Part shown: in pieces, positions 10,613 through 34,743 of the stretch | Layout: every line of letters begins with the position of its first letter | How positions within the stretch are numbered: the stretch's first letter is position 1 | Source of the DNA: TM7 phylum sp. oral taxon 350 | GTDB lineage: Bacteria > Patescibacteriota > Saccharimonadia > Saccharimonadales > Saccharimonadaceae | DNA length: 34,743 bases | Assembly: GCA_007845205.1 (NCBI GenBank) | Contig: SDRK01000002.1 | Location: forward strand, 1-34,743 | Reading direction: 5' to 3' | Program-made: the position numbers and the translations under genes | The notes under the pieces: model-generated | Told to the model about the DNA's origin: nothing | The model's database searches: none | Seen by the model: only the letters and a program-made list of their open reading frames with translations

Positions 10613-13200
10613 AATTATCTACAACTTACGATCCTAATAACTTTGAAACAACAATCTATGAAATGTGGGAAAAAGCCGGAGCTTTTAAACCAAAAGGTGA
10701 GGGTGAACCCTATTCCATAGTCATGCCACCACCAAACGCCAATGGTAATTTACATGTTGGACATGCATTATCTTTTCAACTAGAAGATATGTTGGTTAGA
10801 TATTATCGCCAACAGGGAAGAGATACTCTTTATATACCTGGTGCTGACCACGCAGGTTTTGAGACTTGGGTGGTTTTTGAACGTCAGCTAGCTAAAGAAG
10901 GTAAAAGTCGTTTCGATTACACTAGAGAAGAATTATATTCACAAGTTTGGGATTTTGTAGAGAAAAACAGAGGTATCAACACCGTACAATTAAAAGCTCT
11001 TGGTATTTCTGCAGATTGGGATTCACTTTGTTACACATTAGACAAAAAGGTTATTAATAACGTCTATGCTACTTTCCAAAAAATGTGGCAAGAAGGTTTA
11101 GTTTACAGGGGTGAAAGAATCATTAACTACTGTACAGAGCACCAAACAGGCTTTGCAGATATTGAAGTTGAATATAAAGATGAAGAAGGGTCGCTTTGGT
11201 ACATTAATTACCCGATAAAAGAGAAGGAAGGAAAGTATATCCAAATTGCTACCACCAGACCAGAGACCATGCTTGGTGATACAGCAATTGCAATTAACCC
11301 TGAAGATAGACGTTTTAAGGATTTAGTTGGATTACATGCAGTAGTACCAATAGTTAATCGAGAAGTTCCAATTATTGCCGATAAATATGTTGAAAAAGGC
11401 TTTGGCACAGGTGCTGTAAAAATTACACCAGCTCACGATCCTAATGACTTTGAAATTGGCCAAAGACATTGCTTAGAAAACATCACTGTAATCGGTTTTG
11501 ATGGCAAAATAACCAATACTTTAGATGAATACAACGGTTTATCTGTAAAAGAAGCTAGAAAAAAGATTATCGATCAGCTACAAAAAGATGGACTTTTGGT
11601 CAGAACCGAGAAGATTAATCACGCTGTTGGACATTGTTATAAGTGTGGCACAGTCATAGAGCCACTACTTAAAGAACAGTGGTTTGTTAAGATGAAACCA
11701 CTTGTTAATAAGGCTCTAAGCCATATTGAAGATGATGAAATTAAATTCTTTCCAGAATCTGCAAAGAGAAATGTCTTAAACTACTTAAAGAATCTAAAAG
11801 ATTGGAATGTATCACGTCAAATAGCCTGGGGAATACCAATACCAGCTTTTCAGAATAAAGAAGACCCTAAAGATTGGATTTTTAATACTAGAGTTACTGA
11901 ACCTGAGATTGAAATAGACGGTAAAACCTATATTCGCGAAGAGGATACTTTCGATACTTGGTTTAGCTCTTCTCAATGGCCATACATTACAACAGATTAT
12001 CTAGAACATGGTAAAAATGCTAAATTCTATCCTAATTCTGTTCTGGAGACCGGTAGTGATATCTTATATGGCTGGGTAAGTCGCATGATCCTTATGGGCG
12101 TCTATAGAACAGGTATGGTGCCATTCAAAGAAGTTTACTTACACGGCATGGTCTTAGATGAAAAAGGTCTAAAAATGTCTAAGAGTAAGGGTAATGTTAT
12201 AAACCCTATGGAAATGCTTGCTAAATACGGTTCAGATGCACTAAGAATTGGTATCTCAATGAGTAGATCTGCTGCTCAAAACCAGGCTTTTGCTACAGGA
12301 AATGTCTTAGCTGGACGTAATTTCTGTAATAAGCTATGGAATATCTCAAGATATATTTTGTCTCAATTAGGTGAAGACTATAAGAAGATAGATGCTATCG
12401 TTGCTGATACCACTGCAGATAACTGGATTGTATCAAGGCTAGATCAGACGAAAAAAGACTTAAAACAATTGTTTAAGGATTATCGTTTCTCTGAAGCAGT
12501 AGAGCTTGTTTATCACTTTGTTTGGGACGATCTTGCTGACTGGTATATTGAAGCTTCAAAAGCAGAGAAAAATTCTCACGTCTTAGCATATGTATTAGAA
12601 GAAAGCCTAAAATTATCTCATCCAATTGCGCCTTTTGCTACTGAAACAATCTGGCAAGCCCTTCCTTGGATTGAAGACGGTAATCTTTTGATTAATCAGG
12701 TTCAAAAGGAAACTATTAAATATGGCATTATTGAAGCTGGTTCTTTCGATCAGCTAAAAACCTTTATTACTGAAGTTAGATCCCTAAAAGCTAAGCTAAA
12801 AGTTACAAATAAGAAATTAGAGGTTAACTTCTTAAATGATTCTTTGATCAAAGATAATAAAAACCTCATTAAGATTATGTGTAGCTTATCAGACGTTGTT
12901 GAATCAGATAATCCAGAGGGAATTAGAATACCTTCGATCAGCCGCCAAGCATGGCTAAAAGTCAGTAATGATACCTTAAAAGCTTACAGAAAAGATCTAG
13001 AAGACAAGATTAACGAGACAACAAAGAGCATTACTATGTTAGAAAAACGTCTTGGTAATAAAAACTATCTAGAAAAAGCTCCAGAAGCTCTTGTGAACGA
13101 AACTAAAAACAATTTAGCCGAATCTAAACAATTGTTTAAAAAACTATCCGAAGAACTAGAACAAGCTACTAGTAATCAGCTAGAAGATAAGAATCAATAA
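10609..13200 (+). CDS. valS: valyl-tRNA synthetase
   Basis: This class I synthetase charges tRNA-Val. It contains the HIGH motif as HVGH (residues 49-52, in NANGNLHVGHAL), the editing (CP1) insertion around residues 190-340 with TTRPETMLGDTAIA, the zinc-knuckle-like GHCYKCGTVIEPLLKEQWF, the WDxxDTWFSS region and the KMSKS loop as written at residues 522-526. The C-terminal anticodon-binding domain is followed by a coiled-coil arm with KLEVNFLN and a terminal helical pair. At 863 aa it is on the short side of normal, with nothing essential missing. It is a single gene with an unusual leader and ends at the hairpin at 13251. Confidence 0.97.
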   Translation: MKLSTTYDPNNFETTIYEMWEKAGAFKPKGEGEPYSIVMPPPNANGNLHVGHALSFQLEDMLVRYYRQQGRDTLYIPGADHAGFETWVVFERQLAKEGKSRFDYTREELYSQVWDFVEKNRGINTVQLKALGISADWDSLCYTLDKKVINNVYATFQKMWQEGLVYRGERIINYCTEHQTGFADIEVEYKDEEGSLWYINYPIKEKEGKYIQIATTRPETMLGDTAIAINPEDRRFKDLVGLHAVVPIVNREVPIIADKYVEKGFGTGAVKITPAHDPNDFEIGQRHCLENITVIGFDGKITNTLDEYNGLSVKEARKKIIDQLQKDGLLVRTEKINHAVGHCYKCGTVIEPLLKEQWFVKMKPLVNKALSHIEDDEIKFFPESAKRNVLNYLKNLKDWNVSRQIAWGIPIPAFQNKEDPKDWIFNTRVTEPEIEIDGKTYIREEDTFDTWFSSSQWPYITTDYLEHGKNAKFYPNSVLETGSDILYGWVSRMILMGVYRTGMVPFKEVYLHGMVLDEKGLKMSKSKGNVINPMEMLAKYGSDALRIGISMSRSAAQNQAFATGNVLAGRNFCNKLWNISRYILSQLGEDYKKIDAIVADTTADNWIVSRLDQTKKDLKQLFKDYRFSEAVELVYHFVWDDLADWYIEASKAEKNSHVLAYVLEESLKLSHPIAPFATETIWQALPWIEDGNLLINQVQKETIKYGIIEAGSFDQLKTFITEVRSLKAKLKVTNKKLEVNFLNDSLIKDNKNLIKIMCSLSDVVESDNPEGIRIPSISRQAWLKVSNDTLKAYRKDLEDKINETTKSITMLEKRLGNKNYLEKAPEALVNETKNNLAESKQLFKKLSEELEQATSNQLEDKNQ

Positions 13201-31168: not shown

Positions 31169-34100
31169 ATGAAAATAACTAATTTCACTCCGAATTCCGA
31201 AAAAGAGGCCGACGAATCCGTCAGTCCTTCTTTAAGTGCTTTAGAGAAGAAAACGGCTAGTGAAAATAATTCCTCGTCGAGTACCGCAGAAGATGTTAGA
31301 AACCAGGAAAATTTCTCTAGTAGGCTTAATTTTAAAAATAGTGTATCTGGTAAAGGCAAGTTATCTCTTGCTAAAAACGTACAACGTAAATCTCCAGTTG
31401 CTATTTTAGTGTCAATTATTTTTGGTCTAGTATTGGGGCTTGGAGCAACCTCTCAAACAATGTCCTTAGTTGCTGTTGGACACTACTTAATGGAAAAATT
31501 TAGCACCTCACAAGTTTTTTCTCATATTAGAGGTAGCAAGATTAGAAGCTCTAAAATTAATTCAGATGATATTGCTAAGTGTGGAAAGATAACCAGACGC
31601 TGTAGCTTTAAACATTTATCGGATAAAGAGATAAAATCCCTAAAAAGCCATGGTATTGAAGTTAAATCAAAAAAAGGTCTTCTTGGTCGCCATAAGATAG
31701 AAAGCATTAATTATAATGGTAAAAATTTTAATGCCACAGAGTTTGTTAAATTATCCAAGAACGATTCAACTTTACAAGGAGTCTTTAATAAGATAAACAA
31801 TCCTAAACGAAAAACTTTATATACAGGTAAAGCTTGGAAAACTCTGCAAAACCTGACCGGCAATGTTCTTGATAAGATCAACAAACTTCGTAAGCCAAAA
31901 AAGGGTGAAAAAGAGAATACTAGTTTTTCAAAAACGCTGAAAAATTCCAGTAAATCGAAAGAATCTGAAGTAAAATCCATTAATACTAAAACCGAAAAAG
32001 ACGGTGATGTGGATGGTCGTGGCAAAAAAGTTGGCAAACAAGGAAAAACTTTCCTAAAAGATTTAAAAACTAAATTTAAAGGTAAGCTTAAAGACGTATT
32101 TAGCAAAAGTACACGCAACATAACATCTGGTGCTGGAGCGGTCGTTAAGTTTATGTGTGGAGTGAGATCGACCTCTGCGATGGTAGTAAATGCCTATAAA
32201 GTAATGCAGGTTACTGCTTATATTGGTTATTTTTCAACCATTATGAAATTAATTTATGCCTTAATGTCTGGCACCGGAGCATCCGAAGCAATTAACGACC
32301 TTGGAAATCGCTTTATTCAACCAGATAAGACTACTGGTAAAAACTTATTTGATTCGGACGGATATAAATACGCAGCTTATGGCACGGTAAAAAATATCGA
32401 TAATCGTCCAGAAGATCTAAATCAGGCAATGAAAACCGTAGGCGTTGGTGAAGATAAAGTAGATAGAAGTATTGGTGATTTTAAATACGATGAATTATCC
32501 GATGGGCAAAAAAGTATTGTCGATGACGACGCTAAAGTGCCTAAAAAGACATCCAAGAACTACACAAAATACGTCATTGGTAGTGGAGTAGGGGCTGGAT
32601 TCGTTGCATCACTCACTATGGGTATTAAAGGCTTTTTTGATAAAACTCCTGCTGGATTAGTGGCTAATAAGACAACCTGTAAAGCAGCAGATTCAAGCCT
32701 TGCTGATATAGCTTCTATTCTTACAAACCCCGTTGCTTACTTTGGTGGTGCAATCGCTGGTAGTATTATTGGTTCTATTGTAGGCGCATTATTAGAACCC
32801 GTCTTAGATAGCGTTATGAACGGCATGAAAGAAGGATTAACAACTGGTAATGAAAATGGTGAACAGATTGGTAACATGATCACTGCAGGTGCTGGAGCAC
32901 AGGCTGCCGCCAGTTCACAATCTATTGGATTAAGACCGCAAAATATTGACGAAGCAGTGAAAACTGTTAGTTATATGGATAAGAAAAATGCTGAACTTGC
33001 AGCCATTGATCGGGCTAATCGCAGTCCTTTCGATATCACTTCTAAAAACACCCTTATGGGTAATCTAATGACTAATATGCTTCCATTCTCAACTAAGGTT
33101 AGTTCACTTTCTTCGGGTATTACAAGCCTTCTTGGAATGTTTAATACTTCCTTAAAACAAGCTTCTTTAACTTCTTTTGCTCTAGCAAAAGACGAGAACG
33201 ATTACCGTAAACAATTTGAAGTCTGTAACGACGATGACTACAAAGATGTTGGTGTCGCAGCCGACCCATTCTGCAATATGCAATATGGAAGCAATACTGA
33301 GACTCTAGATAAAGAGCCTACAAAGGTATTAGACGAACTAGTTCAAAAAGGTGACTTCATAGAAGCTGTTGGCGAAGATGGTAAAAGAGCTACTGGTAAC
33401 GACTACATGAATAAAGCGGTTGGTTATAGGGTAATTGGTGGAGAAGGCGATAAAAAAGAAATTCTAAATGGCTACAACTACAGAAAATACTGTATGGAAA
33501 ACACAGAGCCATTTTACACTAATGAATCCATGTCCGGTGACGATCCTCGACCAGAATATTGTTACAAAGACTCCATCGATGCTGAGACTAAAAACAATAC
33601 AAAAGGCGAAGAACTAAAGAAAGAGATAAATAACTATAGGATGTATCTAATTGATGATGCAACCTTAGACGGTATGGAAAACGACGAAGACGAAGAACAG
33701 CCATCTGAAATGAATCAAGAGGCGGGAGACGACTATCCATTCCGTGGCCCCGAATATTATAACTACGGTTGTAGCGATGATTCTCTTGCAACTGGTAATT
33801 GTACAGAATATGGGGGATTAGGAATTATCCGACAATGTGTATCTTTTGCTAAATGGCGTGCTAGCCAACAAATAGCGGGCAATAATACTGGTAAAAAAGA
33901 AGGTCAATCTGGATGGGCATACAATGTAGGCCTAACAGGTCACGGTATACAATTTGCAGGCAAACTAATTGATAATGGAGTTGCTGATGCTGTCAGCGTA
34001 AATGACCTAAAAACCGGAGACTTTATCAGTACTAGTCAAGGTAGTAGTACTTTTGGACATATTGCAGTGGTCACCAGAGTAATGGGCGATAAATTTGAAG

Positions 34101-34234
34101 TAGAACAATATAACGCTGCTTGGGTCAGGTGGAATGGTCTTGCAAAGGCTATTTATAGTAGATCTATTCACAGTAAAAGAGATAAAAACATTGTAAAAAT
34201 CGCTCGGATCAGAAGACCAGCAGGAGCTAGATAA
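31169..34234 (+). CDS. large membrane protein with C-terminal CHAP peptidoglycan hydrolase domain
   Basis: The 1021-aa protein has a Ser/Lys-rich cytoplasmic N-terminus, a helix near 76-105, a basic stretch, and three more helix-rich regions near 335-368, 468-490 and 521-550. A long extracytoplasmic part with several Cys follows. The last 130 residues are a CHAP domain: IIRQCVSFAKW with catalytic Cys890, SGWAYNVG, and FGHIAVVTRV with His964, then VEQYNAAW. CHAP enzymes cut peptidoglycan peptides (amidase or endopeptidase). Next to VirB4 it would serve the role of VirB1 or a T4SS hydrolase, opening the wall of the cell itself or of a contacted cell. The target is inference. Confidence 0.88.
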   Translation: MKITNFTPNSEKEADESVSPSLSALEKKTASENNSSSSTAEDVRNQENFSSRLNFKNSVSGKGKLSLAKNVQRKSPVAILVSIIFGLVLGLGATSQTMSLVAVGHYLMEKFSTSQVFSHIRGSKIRSSKINSDDIAKCGKITRRCSFKHLSDKEIKSLKSHGIEVKSKKGLLGRHKIESINYNGKNFNATEFVKLSKNDSTLQGVFNKINNPKRKTLYTGKAWKTLQNLTGNVLDKINKLRKPKKGEKENTSFSKTLKNSSKSKESEVKSINTKTEKDGDVDGRGKKVGKQGKTFLKDLKTKFKGKLKDVFSKSTRNITSGAGAVVKFMCGVRSTSAMVVNAYKVMQVTAYIGYFSTIMKLIYALMSGTGASEAINDLGNRFIQPDKTTGKNLFDSDGYKYAAYGTVKNIDNRPEDLNQAMKTVGVGEDKVDRSIGDFKYDELSDGQKSIVDDDAKVPKKTSKNYTKYVIGSGVGAGFVASLTMGIKGFFDKTPAGLVANKTTCKAADSSLADIASILTNPVAYFGGAIAGSIIGSIVGALLEPVLDSVMNGMKEGLTTGNENGEQIGNMITAGAGAQAAASSQSIGLRPQNIDEAVKTVSYMDKKNAELAAIDRANRSPFDITSKNTLMGNLMTNMLPFSTKVSSLSSGITSLLGMFNTSLKQASLTSFALAKDENDYRKQFEVCNDDDYKDVGVAADPFCNMQYGSNTETLDKEPTKVLDELVQKGDFIEAVGEDGKRATGNDYMNKAVGYRVIGGEGDKKEILNGYNYRKYCMENTEPFYTNESMSGDDPRPEYCYKDSIDAETKNNTKGEELKKEINNYRMYLIDDATLDGMENDEDEEQPSEMNQEAGDDYPFRGPEYYNYGCSDDSLATGNCTEYGGLGIIRQCVSFAKWRASQQIAGNNTGKKEGQSGWAYNVGLTGHGIQFAGKLIDNGVADAVSVNDLKTGDFISTSQGSSTFGHIAVVTRVMGDKFEVEQYNAAWVRWNGLAKAIYSRSIHSKRDKNIVKIARIRRPAGAR

Positions 34235-34548
34235 TGAACCTTTCTTCTAAACAAATCAAACTTGTCTTTACTGGCATAATTTTGTTGATCTTAGTTGGAT
34301 GCACTGCTTTTGCTTACTTTTCGATATTCACTCAAAGCAATCCTGAAAAAACCACCGAGGCTGAAAATTACACAGAAAAGAATCAGCTAGGTCTTAATAC
34401 CGATCTGAACGTATCGGATGATGACAATGCCAAAACATCCGAGCTTAGGGCAGAAACAGCTAAAAATAATGAAAAGATTGCAAATGAAACAACAATCGAT
34501 ATTGATTGGGGTAAGCTAGATAATAATTTCCATCGTTGTTATCTATAG
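34234..34548 (+). CDS. short single-helix membrane protein, end possibly artificial
   Basis: The visible protein has 104 residues. It has one hydrophobic helix (about residues 9-32, containing LVGC, which resembles a lipobox, but hydrophobicity continues past Cys23) and an acidic, disordered extracytoplasmic linker. Its ATG overlaps the CHAP stop (TAATG), so it is in the same operon. The last residues FHRCYL lie inside a hairpin at 34517-34545, where the sequence appears to fold back (see findings). The real gene may therefore be longer, perhaps with a lysozyme-like domain after the linker. Confidence 0.6.
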   Translation: MNLSSKQIKLVFTGIILLILVGCTAFAYFSIFTQSNPEKTTEAENYTEKNQLGLNTDLNVSDDDNAKTSELRAETAKNNEKIANETTIDIDWGKLDNNFHRCYL

Positions 34549-34741
34549 AGATTAACTTTTTAAAGAATTCGGCTTTCGAGCCTTCTGAATCATCATTAAC
34601 ACTAAATTTGTTATCGTTAGGAATCTGAATGCTTAAATCATATTGCTTGTATCTGCCACGGAAAACATCAAAAAGAAATTCGGTAATCAATTTAGTTCTT
34701 CTTCCAGTATCCCATTGGGCAAGGCCAAAACCTGCACTATA
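34460..34741 (-). CDS. phage-tail-lysozyme-like protein fragment, open to the right edge
   Basis: On the minus strand the frame is open from the window edge. Its first visible residues are YSAGFGLAQWDTGRRTKLI, the substrate-site motif GxxQWxxGRR of phage tail lysozyme-like peptidoglycan hydrolases. The sequence then continues plausibly to about ISIDNNDG near 34535. From there to the stop at 34460 it is the complement of the upstream plus-strand gene, so the tail is probably not genuine. Proteins with this domain are often encoded beside CHAP and VirB4 genes in CPR, normally on the same strand. The opposite orientation is odd and is discussed in the findings. Confidence 0.5.
   Translation of the reverse strand, partial: YSAGFGLAQWDTGRRTKLITEFLFDVFRGRYKQYDLSIQIPNDNKFSVNDDSEGSKAEFFKKLISIDNNDGNYYLAYPNQYRLLFHLQSFHYF
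34517..34545. repeat. imperfect inverted repeat at the head-on junction
   Basis: TAGATAATAA (34517-34526) pairs with TTGTTATCTA (34536-34545), 9 of 10 positions, around a 9-base loop. It lies where the plus-strand and minus-strand reading frames meet. Confidence 0.7.
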
Positions 34742-34743
34742 AG

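Follow-up and report, generated by a model that had tools for sequence, protein, structure and literature searches.

In MDA, chimeras form when displaced 3' ends re-anneal on nearby displaced strands, and most of them carry intervening deletions (PMC1855051). In the same report, 406 of 475 chimeras were inverted, and in 337 of these the two segments lay <10 kb apart. A 2024 study describes MDA chimeras as mostly inverted, the two segments in most cases lying about 500 bp from each other, and as rare, at <0.07% of unmapped reads (PMC10945365). A paper on the T7 replisome reports inverted repeats as template-switching sites with that enzyme (PMC9484634). For the gene family concerned here, a 2025 paper names the homologues of peptidase and lysozyme that lie immediately after virB4 as essential for Ca. 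S. epibionticum ML1 to grow as an epibiont, and states that other glycosidases may replace VirB1 in Patescibacteria (PMC12102498).

The window analysed here, i.e. the whole stretch of DNA, is the entire contig C31 of 34,743 bases. It belongs to a Saccharibacteria-like genome of 523,632 bases in 38 contigs that is 67.29% complete. The right edge of the window is the true terminus of C31, and no cut was introduced there. At this terminus a plus-strand ORF of 104 residues (34234-34548) meets a minus-strand frame of 93 residues (34460-34741), which is open at the contig end, reads YSAGFGLAQWDTGRR... and contains GFGLAQWDTGRR. The two frames share 89 bases (34460-34548), and the head-on overlap of the minus frame with a plus-strand single-helix gene, as described in the first-pass annotation, was thereby confirmed. 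The rest of the genome was searched for another copy of this end sequence, and none was found. The features are collected in the table. The virB4 name was assigned from family resemblance and position and the virB6 label from position and size, with no family match behind the latter name; the helix of piece A was judged by eye. Piece A is probably a small one-helix gene that is truncated at the junction, and the native orientation of piece B would be the plus strand.

Features at the right end of the window (contig C31) and the basis of each assignment
Feature	Coordinates	Strand	Basis
virB4-like ATPase gene, 598 aa	29303..31099	+	Pfam P-loop_TraG 4.5e-29; locus anchor
Large 1021-aa protein at the virB6 position; C-terminal CHAP	31169..34234	+	CHAP 4.3e-08, residues 887-982
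Gene A, genuine start: one hydrophobic helix and acidic linker	34234..34528	+	ATGA overlap with the upstream stop; position, layout
Probable chimeric junction, most likely interval (best 34528)	34493..34538		Codon-usage likelihood
Piece B, inverted internal hydrolase part, phage-tail-lysozyme-type core, GFGLAQWDTGRR	34529..34741	-	Hydrolase profile matches

The gene order was compared with related genomes, for which virB4 was chosen as the anchor because the CHAP part and the 1021-aa protein found no relatives. The CHAP part retrieved itself alone from 100 genomes and the search of the genome contigs with the 1021-aa protein found no relative, whereas virB4 had matches at E <=1e-100 in 87 of the 100 genomes, our own included. 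The 29 best virB4 matches besides that of the window were 76-81% identical. Forty loci downstream of virB4 were chosen by eye among the virB4-matching genomes, with room downstream required, and a second set consisted of the best 80 of 511 loci; some genomes are common to both sets. Letters read as N were present in part of 1 of the 40 and 4 of the 80 stretches. The usual order in the relatives was virB4, one large gene, to which the 1021-aa protein had low-identity matches, a hydrolase of mostly ~400-700 aa, and small membrane genes. Downstream of virB4, recF was found on the minus strand in 34 of the 40 loci, dnaN in 35 and both in 32.

A profile of 23 hydrolase sequences, seeded with plus-strand genes only, was then run on the six frames of both strands. 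It matched on the virB4 strand in 27 of the 40 loci (E <1e-3) and in 54 of the best 80 of 511, all of the latter again on the virB4 strand. No hydrolase was found on the strand opposite to virB4 in either set (0/40 and 0/80), and no profile match at all was seen in 13 and 26 loci, respectively. The expectation that the lysozyme gene of related loci lies downstream in the same orientation was therefore borne out, and this supports the view that the head-on arrangement is abnormal against the related loci. Among the 27 matching loci, the hydrolase was the second gene after virB4 in 19, with no small gene between, and followed one small gene in five (L045, L048, L050, L052 and L066). Of the other three, L068 had an opposite-strand frame in between that is probably spurious, in L062 the hydrolase came directly after virB4 and in L077 it lay far downstream. 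Altogether, the hydrolase was located directly or one gene past the large gene in 24 of the 27. Four intact hydrolases of the relatives matched Phage_lysozyme2 (PF18013) at 70.7-102.9 bits.

Some of the relatives differ in the content of this region. Two lysozyme-profile genes each were present in L058, L065 and L066 (3 of the 40 loci), each following a large gene of ~1,000 aa, as if the pair of large gene and hydrolase had been duplicated. In L066 a small gene stands between the large gene and one of its two hydrolases. The large gene after virB4 has varying modules: CHAP in the window (31169-34234), Peptidase_M23 in L045 and L046, an endonuclease/exonuclease/phosphatase domain in L047 and a sub-threshold NlpC/P60 in L066. 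Seven large genes of relatives were scanned, and nothing was found in L057 and L060 and a sub-threshold DUF5610 alone in L051. The 792-aa hydrolase of L048 (6861-9236, minus) combines glycosyl hydrolase family 3, phage tail lysozyme and C39-like peptidase modules, and the 999-aa hydrolase of L058 resembles this three-module protein by eye.

The remainder of the hydrolase was sought in the same genome with a profile of 15 whole hydrolases comprising 432 model positions. At E <=1 it found two places only, which were complementary and in order. One was C31:34634-34738 on the minus strand, corresponding to model positions 115-150 (E 0.0015), and the other was C17:20-457 on the plus strand, corresponding to positions 186-326 (E 1.7e-7). 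Contig C17 opens inside a hydrolase with a 263-aa open frame from base 2 to 793. Two further frames (212 and 236 aa) come next, both with matches to the small membrane proteins of the relatives, and then recF and dnaN on the minus strand, for which Pfam gave SMC_N at 1.3e-16 and DNA_pol3_beta domains down to 4.3e-23. The C17 frame matched PF18013 at positions 83-136 of 140 (E 1.7e-5), with 25.4 bits below the cut-off of 28.2, and piece B alone gave no match to this family. With the 23-sequence profile piece B was found at E 0.0026, and with a profile of 78 distinct sequences at E 1.5e-7 in a search of the two fragments only. The codon usage of B has remained coding-like. Neither a piece for the N-terminal model positions 1-114 nor the native sequence between A and B was found in the genome, parts of which read as N. 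A 64-aa minus-strand piece was also searched in the 100 genomes and gave nine matches at E <=1, its own and eight weak ones (0.029-0.3). Its Pfam match to BrxA at 0.026 was below the cut-off and was rejected as chance.

The spacing between the two pieces was read by eye alone, because MAFFT had put the first residues of the C17 fragment clearly wrongly. By eye, the right edge of B stops ~20 residues short of C17. In the 78-sequence profile the match of B ends at model position 97 and that of C17 starts at 101. The gap implied by 17 loci, calculated mostly from weak hits, fell into three ranges: 0 to +15 bases (3 loci), -60 to -96 bases (11 loci) and -450 to -830 bases (3 loci); the hydrolase family has an insertion of variable length right at the B/C17 boundary. 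No common 21-mer was observed between C17 and the window in the stretches compared. Since the 55-base overlap of other contig ends (see below) is missing here, C17 and C31 are without a physical link. From the profile positions, B and the C17 piece are most likely neighbours within one gene. It is less likely that they are parts of two hydrolase copies, from which they could stem because L058, L065 and L066 carry two hydrolase genes.

It had also been proposed that the helix-plus-linker protein and the lysozyme domain are one gene if the junction is an artefact. This was not upheld, as the 104-aa frame is without the N-terminal motif of the hydrolases and the small-gene layout exists in 5 of the 27 relatives. 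The hydrolases of the relatives have FYSxNDILFYxP early in the sequence, followed by an invariant cysteine (consensus of 15). The motif is absent from the 104-aa frame, and the native part of the frame has no cysteine after residue 23. The small proteins of the relatives mostly start with one helix and a polar stretch, as judged by eye. A comparison of the 104-aa frame with the small one-helix proteins of the five loci gave no significant match. Its best matches were weak (0.007, 0.008 and 0.016) and were to small proteins that are encoded after the hydrolase, not before it, which is no help for two genes. Against two genes also stand the 19 of 27 loci without a small gene ahead of the hydrolase. 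From the layout and the missing motif, we nevertheless consider it likely that the helix-plus-linker protein and the hydrolase are encoded by two separate genes.

The position of the junction was estimated by a codon-usage likelihood with the plus frame on the left and the minus frame on the right. The switch scored best at the tabulated position, and the interval given there lies within 4 nats; a simpler version placed the junction at 34508-34532 within 3 nats. The plus-strand gene is thus known to ~34528, and the stop codon at 34548 is part of the joined piece. The match to the 78-sequence profile stops near 34622, but this position was discarded as the junction, since between 34550 and 34622 the minus frame scores like real genes and looks coding (5.4, where 24-codon stretches of real genes have a mean of 5.3 and antisense stretches -2.6).

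The first-pass annotation had also pointed to a 10-bp inverted repeat at the meeting point. The repeat exists, with arms of 10 nt at 34517-34526 and 34536-34545 that form 9 of 10 pairs around a 9-nt spacer; the junction interval covers one arm (34517-34526) fully and the other partly. It is not distinctive, however, as repeats of the same grade (spacer 3-20) occur as 89 pairs at 38 merged sites in the 34.7-kb window, which makes it unremarkable in AT-rich DNA. In 2000 random 89-nt Markov sequences at least one such repeat was present in 3%. The single-strand DNA fold of 34490-34620 had a z of -1.65, and 9 of 200 shuffles were equal or better. By the Markov and fold results the repeat is hard to distinguish from chance, and it was dropped as the cause of the event. 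A 9-mer in inverted orientation is shared by 34547-34555 and C17:11-19, at the start of that contig (locus L098), and is the longest exact match between 34441-34600 and the first 300 bases of C17. It may be chance or mark the joint, and the possibility that it points to two paralogous copies was weighed too.

Exact 21-mers were compared between the window and the end stretches of the other 37 contigs; of the 68 end stretches, 2 were almost wholly and 5 partly N. Three pairs of contig ends had exactly 55 terminal bases in common, as is typical of de Bruijn assembly with a k-mer of this length. The end of C24 is a clear fold-back. It has an exact 50-nt inverted repeat at 12685-12734 and 12971-13020 (L135) with 236 nt between the arms and lies in a glycosyltransferase frame (Glycos_transf_1, 2.9e-31). 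In addition, C33:1-55 (L113) is the reverse complement of C34:7648-7702 (L145), and C34 extends for 197 bases more. By Pfam, rplK is located on C34 and rplA on C33. In 29 relative rplK loci (L153-L181), rplA was seen nearby in 14, colinear in 13 and divergent in 1 (L173), and was not seen within the examined stretch in the other 15. C34/C33 is a probable inverted-type branch with the C34 tail probably inverted, but a shared repeat is an alternative reading. The tail (C34:7648-7899) contains a 54-aa frame, MENGRPRPARSGWDP..., for which none of the 29 relative rplK loci gave a counterpart.

Taken together, our results suggest that C31 ends in an inverted chimera accompanied by a deletion, which arose by an amplification or assembly error (probability about 0.9), and that the window end probably holds no new biology. 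The second segment is inverted against its native orientation, as B is on the minus strand and the relatives and C17 point to the plus strand. The segments would be near each other with a stretch deleted, as judged from the 24 of 27 relatives and from model positions 1-114, which had no match, and other such joins exist in the assembly at C24 and, less certainly, at C34/C33. A chimera at the contig end had been put forward at the outset to explain the head-on piece, and it is supported because a piece that looks like the remainder of the hydrolase sits correctly oriented on C17; the C24 end folds back as well. The native order would then be virB4, the large CHAP protein, the small one-helix gene, the peptidoglycan hydrolase with its lysozyme core followed by a C-terminal module, and two small membrane genes, with recF and dnaN beyond them on the other strand. 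While the genome was being amplified, a 3' end displaced within the small gene would have re-annealed to a nearby displaced strand in the hydrolase gene and copied it backwards. The intervening stretch, roughly 0.5-1 kb as estimated from the gene lengths of the relatives, would thereby have been deleted, and the assembler would have followed the chimeric path for ~215 bases and then stopped. We infer that this genome was amplified; misassembly of unamplified DNA would give nearly the same picture.

A natural invertible segment would produce a similar picture. It would begin within the small gene, end midway through the hydrolase and flip in the population, turning the hydrolase off, and the contig would have caught the 'off' state. 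Such an inversion would likewise set B inverted after A and make a break just before C17, near the start of C17, and a 10-nt inverted repeat is present at the junction. The inverted state was, however, not found in any of the 40 loci or of the best 80 of 511, and the comparison of 34441-34600 with the first 300 bases of C17 gave no clear flanking repeat, the best being the inverted 9-mer. A PF00239 recombinase was not found at E <=0.001 in the 67%-complete genome, in a search limited to this serine recombinase family, which it detected in 10 of 14 control genomes. An invertible segment also leaves the C24 fold-back unexplained, and we regard it as very improbable. If it were true, the inversion would be a switch in the kind of wall-degrading gene that is reported to be essential for epibiotic growth in a relative (PMC12102498). 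Slightly less probable still is a genuine phase-variable inversion by which a Saccharibacteria epibiont would turn its T4SS-linked peptidoglycan hydrolase on and off; the parasite could then modulate how it attacks the wall of its host cell.

Two further readings take the sequence as it stands. In a fixed natural inversion or rearrangement, this lineage would have destroyed its hydrolase gene, and the gene is indeed broken in the present sequence. Against this, a hydrolase of this profile is kept in 27 of the 40 relative loci, the peptidase and lysozyme homologues just after virB4 are reported to be essential in Ca. S. epibionticum ML1 (PMC12102498), B has coding-like codon usage and C17 holds an open frame of 263 aa. 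The chance of such a fixed event is smaller again. Least probable is a genuine convergent pair, in which a short helix gene would face a divergent lysozyme gene on the minus strand. Both frames are open and each has coding-like codon usage on its own side, but they overlap by 89 bases, the minus-strand gene ends without the rest of the lysozyme fold, a piece of which is on C17, and an opposite-strand hydrolase occurs in no scanned relative. If the end of C31 is an inverted chimera, gene-order claims at this end would be wrong and the hydrolase of this genome would be overlooked as two orphan fragments. At least one further end of the same assembly bears the same type of error.

In comparison with known systems, the end of C31 resembles phase-variable invertible segments in that an inverted stretch runs through two genes and a short inverted repeat is present at the junction. 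It differs from them in that a pair of flanking repeats, a second orientation or a serine recombinase was not found in the incomplete genome. The hydrolase looks like an ordinary member of the known arrangement after virB4. Compared to the T4SS-associated Phage_lysozyme2 hydrolases of Saccharibacteria, it is split over two contigs with its middle piece inverted and its N-terminal part not found, whereas the PF18013 match on C17 and the gene order are as in the relatives. MDA chimeras, for which a complementarity of 2-21 nt is expected at the junction, differ from the present case in that amplification is presumed here and that the assembly lacks the native continuation of both A and B. In conclusion, the end of C31 is like the MDA chimeras described by Lasken and Stockwell in 2007 in that the second segment is inverted and nearby and the stretch between the two segments is missing (PMC1855051).
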